From Flavobacteriaceae bacterium (GTDB taxonomy: Bacteria > Bacteroidota > Bacteroidia > Flavobacteriales > Flavobacteriaceae): a stretch of DNA of 63,612 nt. The notes below the pieces were generated by a model. It was not told the origin of the DNA. It saw only the letters and a list, made by a program, of their open reading frames with translations, and ran no database searches. Below are positions 5,942 to 9,994 of this stretch, in pieces (position 1 is the stretch's first letter; the number at the start of each line of letters is the position of its first letter). Location of the stretch: assembly GCA_029268555.1 (NCBI GenBank), contig JAQWNN010000022.1, positions 1 through 63,612 of the forward strand, read 5' to 3'. Made by a program: the position numbers and the translations under genes.

Positions 5942-7078
5942 TTAAAACTTTGTTGATGCAACTGCATCTGAGTAAATAGTTTCGTACTTACCAATTATCC
6001 TTTCCAGGGAAAATAAACTTGCTTGCTTTTTAGCTTGTTGTTTAAATTGTTTGTGAAGGTTTTCATTCAAAAGTAAGTTTTTGGCCTTTGATACCATCTC
6101 ATCAATATCTCCAATATTTGATAGATAACCAGAATAGCCTTCTTTATTTACTTCTGAAAGACCACCCGCATTTGAGGAAATTACAGGCACACCATGAGCC
6201 ATAGCCTCTAGAGCTGATAGCCCAAAACTTTCTTTTTCTGAAGGAAGTAAAAACAAATCAGAATAGCAAAGAATTTTATCTATTTCATTACTGTTTCCCA
6301 AGAAGAGAATTTTATCACTTAATCCCTTTTTCTCAACATAATCTAATGCCTTGATCTTTTCGGGTCCTTCGCCAATCATCATTAGTCTACATGAAATTTC
6401 TGGACTTAGTCTTTCAAATATTGAAATTACGTCCATAATTCTTTTTAATGGTCTAAAATTGCTGATATGGGTCAATATTTTTTCTTCTTTTTCTGCTAAA
6501 AGAGTTCTTTCACATGGCTTTCCTACACTATCAATTTTTTCAATATCGATAAAGTTAGGGACAACTTCAATATTTGTTTTAATATCAAAAAGACGAATTG
6601 TATCTTGTTTTAAGCTTTGAGAGACTGCTGTCACTCGATCGGAATGATTAATACTAAAAGTAACTGCTGGTCGATAAAAAGGATGGCTTCCAACTAAAGT
6701 GATGTCTGTACCATGCAATGTTGTTACTATAGGAATCTGAATCCCTTCATCCATTAGCATTTTTTTAGCCATGTAAGCTGCATATGCGTGGGGAATGGCA
6801 TAATGAACATGCAACACATCAATGTGAGCATTTTTTACCACGTCTACCAAACGACTTGAAAGTGCTAATTCATAGGGCTGGTATTTAAATAAGGGGTATT
6901 CAGGGATATTTACCTCATGAAAGTGTATACTGTGATGCTGAAGTGCTTCAAGGCGAACAGGTTGGTGATAGGTGATAAAATGAACTTCATGTCCTTTAGC
7001 TGAAAGAGCGATTCCTAACTCCGTCGCTACAACACCACTTCCTCCAAAAGTAGGATAACAAACAATTGCTATATTCAA
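5942..7078 (-). CDS. bshA: N-acetyl-alpha-D-glucosaminyl L-malate synthase BshA
   Basis: A 378-residue GT-B fold glycosyltransferase of family GT4. The N-terminal glycine loop in YPTFGGSGVVATELG and the sequence HFITYHQPVRL are characteristic of BshA; the donor-site EX7E motif is in ESFGLSALE near residue 280, with PSEKES before it. BshA joins UDP-GlcNAc to L-malate, the first committed step of bacillithiol, the low-molecular-weight thiol of many Bacteroidota and Firmicutes. The other bsh genes are not in this window. It lies 12 bases downstream of the split GH3/serine-hydrolase gene on the same strand and is probably in its transcript. Confidence 0.93.
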   Translation of the reverse strand: MNIAIVCYPTFGGSGVVATELGIALSAKGHEVHFITYHQPVRLEALQHHSIHFHEVNIPEYPLFKYQPYELALSSRLVDVVKNAHIDVLHVHYAIPHAYAAYMAKKMLMDEGIQIPIVTTLHGTDITLVGSHPFYRPAVTFSINHSDRVTAVSQSLKQDTIRLFDIKTNIEVVPNFIDIEKIDSVGKPCERTLLAEKEEKILTHISNFRPLKRIMDVISIFERLSPEISCRLMMIGEGPEKIKALDYVEKKGLSDKILFLGNSNEIDKILCYSDLFLLPSEKESFGLSALEAMAHGVPVISSNAGGLSEVNKEGYSGYLSNIGDIDEMVSKAKNLLLNENLHKQFKQQAKKQASLFSLERIIGKYETIYSDAVASTKF

Positions 7079-7090
7079 TTTCTTTAGATT

Positions 7091-8023
7091 TTAGTTTATT
7101 ATTGCGTTATAAAAAAGCTCTTGCAAACGTGTTCTTATATTATTTTTACTGAATGCAAAGTCGTCATCAGGATACGTTCTGTTTGCCAAGATAACAATTA
7201 CTATTTGTTTTTCAGGGTCAGCCCAAGCATAAGTTCCAGTATATCCGGAATGTCCAAAACTTTTTTCAGATACACATCCACAAGTTGAAATGTGAACACC
7301 TTCTAATTGTGGCTTATCAAATCCTACTCCCCTCCTATTTCCTACAGAACAGTAAGAACATGAATTAAAAGATGCTATAGTTTTCGAATCCAGTAATTGA
7401 ATACCGTTATATGCTCCACCCTGAAGATACATCTGCATGATTGATGCCACAGCCTCTGAGTTTCCAAAGAGACCTGCATGAGCCCCTATGCCATTTTGCA
7501 TGGCAGCACCCATATCATGAACATACCCATCTAATTTTTGATTGCGAAAATAATCGTCAATCTCTGAAGGAACAATCTTTATTGTGTCAAATTTATTTAA
7601 TGGGGAATAAGTGATTTCTTTTAAACCGAGGGGATTAAATACTTTTTCCGCAACCAATTTATCATAACTTTTATTAAATGAACTTTCGAAATATTTTTTT
7701 AAAATATAGTAGGGTAAATCTGAATATAGATAAGATAAAGAATCAACTAATTCACTTGTCCTTATTTGGTCATATATTTCCTTTTCAAAATCTGTATTTA
7801 AAAATAAGTCTTTAGCAACTTTGATTGAAAATTTTGGGGAAAACTCTGACCGGTATTTCGATTTCTTTGGGAAGCCCTTATCATTTAACGTCTCTTTATA
7901 AAATGGAATCCAAGGAACTAATCGTGCATAGTGCGAAAGCATCTCTCTTAGTGTTAACTTGGCTTTATTCGTATCACTCCAATCTGGAAGTAATTCGGCT
8001 ACAGTAGTTTCTAGTGATATAGA
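7091..8023 (-). pseudogene. C-terminal part of the serine hydrolase (beta-lactamase-fold) domain, separated by an in-frame TGA
   Basis: Reading on in the same frame after the TGA at 8024-8026 gives SISLETTVAELLPDW, then joins without a shift to the 283-residue ORF that the track starts at ATG 7942. Together these 310 codons carry the rest of a class C beta-lactamase/esterase-like domain: the YSDLPY segment (Tyr motif), GAHAGLFG, and SFGHSGYTG (the HSG version of the third motif). The SxxK motif is on the upstream piece, so this piece alone cannot form a complete active site. The ATG at 7942 is an internal methionine (LREMLSH), not a convincing start. Read as one protein with the upstream ORF it would be 967 residues, a known Bacteroidota architecture. 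Confidence 0.8.
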
Positions 8024-9994
8024 TCACTCATTTATCGATTGCATAACAAGCGGCAGTGTTCCCAATATCTTTGTAAGGGAAGCCAAATCGTACAGGTCAG
8101 TTGATTTTACTTTTTGTTCCTTTTTATAAGTGTGAAACCCAAAGTTTTTTTGGTAAAATATCTTTCCGTTACGTGCCGCTAAAACTTGAATTCCAGGAGT
8201 CATCATAGAATCGATGGCTTGTAATGCAAGTTTATCAACTTCAATTAACTTTTTATTATCCATTCCTACATTTGCCGGACTTGAAAAGCCAAGTCTAAAA
8301 TTTCCTTTGAGTTCTATACCAGAACCCTCACTGAAAAAATCTGAGATATCTACAGGAAGTTCCCCTTTTATATCCTGAGTCCCAAATAATGCATCAACAC
8401 TTAATTCTTGTGAAATAGAACTGTTTTGATAGCTCAATAAAAGTGCATCTATCCCTTTTATATTCTTAACTGATTTTAGTGAATATGGATTAACAAATAG
8501 GTCTAAAATTATAGTTTTAGTTAAAGCAAGTTTATTGATAATTTTTATTTCATTATTGTTAAAACTTCCATCTTTCCATGGGCTATCATTAGATCGATGG
8601 AAACTGATGATTAGTGTATCAATATTTCTTGCTTTTTCTAAAGCATTAGATTGAGTAACCCCATAAAGAGTGGTTGTCTTTTGATATTTAGACAGTTGAG
8701 ATTGAAAAGAACTACTCGAAGCATCCCCTAATGGAAGGTGACCTAAATTTTTGACTTTTTTTAAAGGTAAAAGAGAGTTATTATTTTTTAACAATGTCAA
8801 TGCTTTTCCTATTGCTTCTGCATGTAAAGCATCATCAAAAGGAGTATTCAAATCTTGTATAAGATTTTCAATAATCACAGGTTTATAATTTGATAAGCCT
8901 ACTTTATATTTTGCTTTTAATATTTTTTTTACAGAATTAGCTAATCTTGCTTCTGTAATTTCCTCTCTTTCAATAGCTTCAGTAATAGCTCTAATTCCCT
9001 CAGGAATATCATTTGAAATCAATAATAAATCATTTCCAGCCTTAAAGGCAGCTAAATCTATATTTTTCACTTTATAATATTCCGATACCCCTTTCATATT
9101 TAAAGCATCAGTGACAATTAATCCCTTAAAACCTATTTCATCAATCAAAATTTTTTGAATTATATCTTTAGATAATGAAGTTGGTAACCCTTTCTTTGTT
9201 AAGGAAGGTACACTCAAATGAGCTACCATAACTGATGACAAGCCTGCATCAATTAATCTATTGTAAGGTTCTAGCTCAATACTTTTAATTCGTTTAGATG
9301 ATAATTCTATTGTAGGAAGTGTTTTATGAGAATCTAAAGCTGTATCACCATGTCCTGGAAAATGTTTACCAGAAGTTAAAATTCCAAAATCATGATGGCC
9401 TCTCATAATAGCCAACGCTTGTCTACTCACACGTTCTTTTGAAGCACCAAAAGATCTATTTCCAATAATTGGATTATTAGGATTTGTATTGATGTCAAGT
9501 ACTGGACCAAAACTATAATGAATTCCAAGTCTTTTTTCTTGTTCTGCCATTCGTTGTCCGATTTTTCTAAGTAATAGTGAATCATTAACTGCCCCCAGAG
9601 TCATAGACCATGGAAAGGGTTTAACTGAGTCCAAACGCATTGCTACCCCCCACTCTGCATCCATAGCAATTAATAAAGGAGTTTTAGATTGTGCCTGAAA
9701 ATCATTTAACCAATGACTTTGTTCTAGTGGTCCACCACGAGAAAAAATAAGACCCCCTACTTTTTGTTCCTTAACTAGTTTTAAGGTTTGGAAGTAATGT
9801 AAACTATCTTTTTCACTAAAAACCATAGGCATAAACAATTGTCCTACTTTCTCATTTAGTGATAAACTTTTATAAACACTGTCAACCCATTTTTTCTGGG
9901 CATACTGATTTGATAAATCAACTTTGAGTGGGTCTATTGTCTGACCTTGAACCAGAAAAGAGAAACAAATAAAAGAACTTATTATATATTTCAA
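8024..9994 (-). CDS. Glycoside hydrolase family 3 (NagZ-like) protein, N-terminal part of a GH3/serine-hydrolase fusion cut by TGA
   Basis: The GH3 domain spans about residues 30-580. The NagZ-type histidine loop KHFPGHGDTALDSH and the nucleophile in GLIVTDALNM (Asp296) are intact, so it should cleave beta-N-acetylhexosaminides such as muropeptide GlcNAc. Residues after about 590 begin a beta-lactamase-type domain whose Ser-x-x-Lys (ASLTK, Ser639/Lys642) is present, but the frame stops at TGA 17 codons later. I chose TTG at 9994 as the start because it gives a clean signal peptide (KYIISSFICFSFLVQGQ) and leaves 19 bases after the upstream gene; the track start at 10105 would overlap that gene by 92 bases. 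The GH3 part may still be active. Confidence 0.85.
   Translation of the reverse strand: MKYIISSFICFSFLVQGQTIDPLKVDLSNQYAQKKWVDSVYKSLSLNEKVGQLFMPMVFSEKDSLHYFQTLKLVKEQKVGGLIFSRGGPLEQSHWLNDFQAQSKTPLLIAMDAEWGVAMRLDSVKPFPWSMTLGAVNDSLLLRKIGQRMAEQEKRLGIHYSFGPVLDINTNPNNPIIGNRSFGASKERVSRQALAIMRGHHDFGILTSGKHFPGHGDTALDSHKTLPTIELSSKRIKSIELEPYNRLIDAGLSSVMVAHLSVPSLTKKGLPTSLSKDIIQKILIDEIGFKGLIVTDALNMKGVSEYYKVKNIDLAAFKAGNDLLLISNDIPEGIRAITEAIEREEITEARLANSVKKILKAKYKVGLSNYKPVIIENLIQDLNTPFDDALHAEAIGKALTLLKNNNSLLPLKKVKNLGHLPLGDASSSSFQSQLSKYQKTTTLYGVTQSNALEKARNIDTLIISFHRSNDSPWKDGSFNNNEIKIINKLALTKTIILDLFVNPYSLKSVKNIKGIDALLLSYQNSSISQELSVDALFGTQDIKGELPVDISDFFSEGSGIELKGNFRLGFSSPANVGMDNKKLIEVDKLALQAIDSMMTPGIQVLAARNGKIFYQKNFGFHTYKKEQKVKSTDLYDLASLTKILGTLPLVMQSINE

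Follow-up and report, generated by a model that had tools for sequence, protein, structure and literature searches.

Does the in-frame TGA that interrupts a cell-wall-recycling enzyme of an uncultured marine Flavobacteriaceae bacterium belong to the organism, or to the draft assembly in which it was found? The window, that is, the whole stretch of 63,612 nucleotides that was analysed, is contig C22 of the source assembly (G000), a 75% complete draft of 1.55 Mb in 65 contigs. On its minus strand, at ~9994–7091, lies a fusion gene encoding a GH3 (NagZ-like) enzyme followed by a PF00144 serine hydrolase of the class-C beta-lactamase fold, and the frame of this fusion is interrupted by a TGA at 8024–8026. 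The original prediction left three explanations side by side: a recent nonsense mutation, a readthrough event and a sequence error. The features to which the argument refers are as follows.

8027..9994, minus strand: upstream part of the gene, 656 codons, with a signal-like N-terminus, the GH3 domains and the first ~70 residues of the serine hydrolase (sequence; start by alignment with relatives)
8915..9859, minus strand: GH3 N-terminal catalytic domain PF00933, with the NagZ-type KHFPGHGDT motif (Pfam, E 7e-74)
8342..8797, minus strand: GH3 C-terminal domain PF01915 (Pfam)
8069..8080, minus strand: SxxK motif (SLTK) of the serine hydrolase, upstream of the stop (sequence)
8024..8026, minus strand: in-frame TGA within the fusion gene; most relatives have Gly in this column
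7094..8023, minus strand: remaining serine-hydrolase domain, open and conserved, with the Tyr motif (YSD) from 7726 and HSG at 7252–7244 (Pfam, alignment)
7091..7093, minus strand: TAA, the natural stop of the fusion gene (sequence, alignment)
5942..7078, minus strand: downstream neighbour with a TTG start, which we take to be a BshA-like glycosyltransferase (ORF list; relatives keep the gene order)

The reading of this locus as an otherwise intact fusion split by one stop codon is borne out by the frame and by the Pfam domains on both sides. Thus, the frame before the stop ends in LVMQSINE, and the same frame then reads SISLETTVAELLPDW... and stays open without a shift for the predicted 310 codons (8023–7094), up to the TAA at 7091–7093. 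Both the N- and C-terminal GH3 domains and PF00144 positions 4–62 are recognised before the stop, and PF00144 positions 73–318 after it. The gene likely starts at the TTG at 9994–9992, which lines up with the MKYTLSF starts of the relatives, and its truncated product would accordingly have 656 residues. The GH3 part is of the NagZ type, as it has PF00933 and a KHFPGHGDT motif that is identical across the 29 aligned copies covering that region. The serine of the SxxK motif sits 18 residues upstream of the TGA, whereas the Tyr and HSG motifs come after it; therefore, as had been claimed, neither piece is a complete serine hydrolase, and all three motifs would stand on one polypeptide if the stop were read through. 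Likewise, the single open reading frame across GH3, domain 2 and PF00144 that defines a fusion of the RmNag3 type is broken in the source assembly and continuous in relatives. The protein start of the downstream neighbour also comes after the fusion gene in relatives, according to the alignment.

The layout itself is already known. RmNag3 of Rhodothermus marinus, a GH3 beta-N-acetylglucosaminidase with a C-terminal beta-lactamase domain, is described as the only characterised enzyme so arranged (PMC6987092), and it has in common with the gene studied here all three parts, namely GH3 domain 1, domain 2 and a C-terminal domain of the beta-lactamase type. RmNag3 is uninterrupted, whereas the assembled gene has a TGA within its third domain. 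In B. subtilis, NagZ (YbbD) and AmiE (YbbE) are sequential muropeptide hydrolases whose genes lie side by side (PMC5061867, PMC6987092), and YbbD structures in the PDB match the GH3 part of the fusion (3bmx, E 8e-60). These are two separate proteins, as opposed to the one fused protein here, and it is by analogy with the NagZ-AmiE pair (PMC5061867) that we regard the C-terminal serine hydrolase as probably an AmiE-like muropeptide hydrolase. If the TGA is a base error or a rare allele, the real protein would be the full-length fusion, in which the NagZ-type GH3 part would take GlcNAc off peptidoglycan fragments and the C-terminal part would cleave the peptide portion, like the separate AmiE of B. 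subtilis.

A structure of the serine-hydrolase domain was predicted for the window protein from 38 sequences, Gly being placed at the TGA position (pLDDT 86.6). In this model, the residue at the TGA position sits immediately behind the SxxK helix, so that the truncated product would retain just the first strands and that helix. Fold matches include 4ivi (TM 0.70), EstG (7u1c/7uda, TM 0.70–0.71) and 3pte (TM 0.63). The domain shares its fold and the SxxK, Tyr and HSG motifs with family VIII carboxylesterases, EstG, class C beta-lactamases and the R61 DD-peptidase, but the identity to them is only 15–18%, and the substrate therefore cannot be deduced from the fold matches.

By sequence comparison, the intact fusion is near-universal in Flavobacteriaceae. 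A match was found in 189 of 191 genomes of the family, nearly all of the matches listed being full-length, and none of the ~150 family matches listed has an internal stop besides the window's own gene. Within the genus, which is represented by 38 members (the 37 others likewise being drafts), the fusion is present in 32. Among 29 comparable genus genes, the TGA column holds Gly in 25 and Lys or Asn in the rest; the nearest relative (77% amino-acid identity) carries a Gly codon, and no other comparable genus copy has a stop at this column. Gly was thus rightly named as the expected residue, and the split fusion is no chance arrangement of open frames. A search of viral contigs for a second copy of the stop site found none. 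The genome search had also flagged stops in further members of the genus (G011, G021) and in the control genes described below, but these are either natural ends or positions no further downstream than the start; the stop flagged in a stand-alone paralogue in the source genome is its natural end.

How old could such a stop be? In the comparison with the nearest relative, the post-stop part has a dN of 0.113 and a dS of 0.93 (a ratio of ~0.12), and GH3 has 0.145 and 0.81. Amino-acid changes on the window's branch versus the relative's stand at 23:18 in the post-stop part and at 44:38 in GH3, and these counts show no acceleration on the window's branch. Furthermore, the other copies all agree at 86 post-stop positions, and the window's gene departs from them at a single one of these, as opposed to ~55 expected had the region been neutral for the whole branch. 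Judged from these substitutions, the part after the stop is as constrained as the remainder of the gene, and neither the relaxed selection nor the further lesions that would mark a decaying pseudogene were found there. This constraint implies that the stop has been present for less than about 5–7% of the branch, or was never present in the living population.

The stop is also not alone in its assembly. A scan of ~397 kb of the source assembly, in stretches, for stops flanked on both sides by coding sequence returned at least three further mid-gene nonsense codons, i.e., at least four in total. An in-frame TAG (L155:9123, contig C3, plus strand) lies in an otherwise intact DegT/DnrJ/EryC1 aminotransferase, with PF01041 positions 4–204 upstream and 212–359 downstream; its homologue in G001, a relative assembled in four contigs, is intact and has a Tyr codon at the TAG position. 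An in-frame TGA (L171:10141, contig C19, minus strand) interrupts a DUF5916-type protein, the G011 homologue of which (82% identity) is open with Arg at this position. The remaining case is an in-frame TAA (L156:15681, contig C4, plus strand) in a folK-dNK fusion, where it separates the HPPK half from the deoxynucleoside-kinase half; this fusion is open in every other genus member among those listed. Every broken gene in the source assembly has a single lesion and a frame that is otherwise intact. A homology check of ~140 kb of this assembly recovered the TGA at 8024, the aminotransferase TAG and the DUF5916 TGA, and no frameshift; its remaining hits were antisense or start-upstream noise, as judged by eye. 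The defects seen are thus substitutions only. The four lesions look like transversions, but this does not discriminate, because with such codon usage most of the changes able to create a stop are transversions in any case.

There was no clear mid-gene nonsense case in 400 kb of G001. G011, another member of the genus, yielded roughly two to three candidates for a stop within a gene over 343 kb, which suggests that sporadic nonsense codons occur in other genus assemblies too. The G011 candidates L187:5853 and L183:3172 fall in a ComM-like protein and a SusC/TonB-receptor-like protein, respectively (names given by eye from the sequence).

Against this background, the explanations can be weighed. 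Programmed readthrough or recoding, with selenocysteine inserted or TGA read as Gly, would yield the full-length protein and would account for a downstream frame that is fully conserved and under purifying selection. Yet no relative has a stop at this position, so it is not a conserved device, and the residue expected there is Gly rather than Cys. In the 75%-complete assembly, where absence is not absolute, no match over the cut-off was found for tRNA-Sec (the best hits of the model were ordinary Ser, Leu, Tyr, Arg and Glu tRNAs) or for SelB. A selenoprotein was rejected on these grounds, the column being Gly, Lys or Asn in relatives, and a recoded genetic code (e.g., table 25, TGA = Gly) does not fit the seven other long open reading frames in the window that terminate at TGA, nor the RF2 gene prfB, which is present over the cut-off. 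Folding of the RNA beyond the TGA revealed nothing stable (z −0.87), and the Rfam scan around the gene gave only a sub-threshold match to a snoRNA model. The base that follows the TGA is T, and a T in this place usually makes a strong terminator context. Readthrough and recoding are therefore disfavoured, and we regard them as very improbable; this part of the original prediction found no support. It is harder still to believe that the locus holds two separate functional genes with the downstream part translated alone. An ATG is indeed available 27 codons past the stop, but the downstream piece has neither SxxK nor the strands and helix with which the fold begins and hence could not be a serine hydrolase, and the conserved coding frame continues straight from the stop codon.

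Sequence error and nonsense mutation, the two other explanations offered at the outset, fared better. Our preferred explanation is that the TGA is probably a base error in the consensus or a rare captured allele, and that the gene is intact in the living population. The TGA would then be one of the sporadic nonsense codons of a draft environmental consensus, either through a miscalled base or because the consensus picked up a rare allele of some strain. What favours this explanation is that the assembly has no fewer than three further isolated nonsense codons, in unrelated genes that are otherwise intact, since lone nonsense codons without frameshifts, in genes otherwise undamaged, are the expected product of base miscalls; an excess of this kind is what was found, four in ~397 kb. 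Cooley and Wright 2024 (PMC11017572) show that miscalled bases at low coverage are often the source of internal stops in assemblies, and that what increases when reads are of poor quality is the number of internal stops, not that of frameshifts. The present case is alike in having an isolated stop in an otherwise intact gene, several such stops per assembly and no frameshifts found, the likeness being drawn from the assembled sequence. If all four lesions were errors, ~77 wrong bases in 397 kb, or 2 in 10,000, would be implied, an estimate that ignores missed cases. Two observations speak against this explanation, namely the stop candidates of G011, on account of which sporadic nonsense may be partly real in these populations, and further lesions in the fusion gene itself in two other genus members. 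These are an in-frame TAA shortly upstream of SxxK in G013 (L113, contig C59) and a frameshifting deletion of roughly 14 bases in G032 (L114, contig C36, around 3194); together with the TGA of the source assembly, all three fall within the serine-hydrolase part.

The same lesions lend support to the main rival, a real and very recent nonsense mutation, which we hold to be possible if somewhat doubtful. The cell would make a 656-residue protein in which the two GH3 domains are followed by 70 residues of the serine hydrolase, a stub of no use; the GH3 activity would be kept, and the second activity would be lost, or covered by a stand-alone serine hydrolase elsewhere in the genome. This is biologically possible because a few Flavobacteriaceae have GH3-only homologues of ~534–546 codons, without the serine-hydrolase part (L149 in G223, L150 in G187 and L148 in G222), so the GH3 part is able to exist alone, and because contig C42 of the source assembly encodes an intact stand-alone serine-hydrolase paralogue (35% identity) with SxxK and HTG motifs. 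However, a mutation has to be reconciled with the near-universal fusion and with the narrow fraction of the branch into which the constraint would compress it. In addition, the other nonsense codons of the assembly, which sit in conserved genes unrelated to the fusion, would not be explained by a loss of the fusion's function. The excess of lesions in the fusion gene (two nonsense codons and one frameshift) is weak as well: three control genes from the window, followed through the same genus, have no internal nonsense codon in ~95,000 codons and one poly-A frameshift, giving p 0.04–0.06, which makes a gene-specific excess suggestive at most. It is quite unlikely, in our opinion, that free-living marine flavobacteria of this genus repeatedly and recently lose the serine-hydrolase half while keeping GH3 (the TGA of G000, the TAA of G013 and the deletion of G032), as a parallel trimming of peptidoglycan recycling. 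From the stop, the conservation of the gene and of its post-stop part, and the other lone stops, all of which are seen directly, we infer that the TGA base is most likely wrong or rare.

For the enzyme, the consequence is a modest one. The TGA is most likely nothing particular to this cell-wall-recycling fusion, given the at least three other isolated stops in healthy-looking genes of the same draft genome. Caution is in order with draft environmental genomes, where one nonsense codon may catch the eye and seem special until the same assembly is checked for others. If, on the other hand, the TGA were real and fixed, the two activities of the NagZ fusion would have been separated in nature, and the organism would provide a natural test of the poorly studied serine-hydrolase half.
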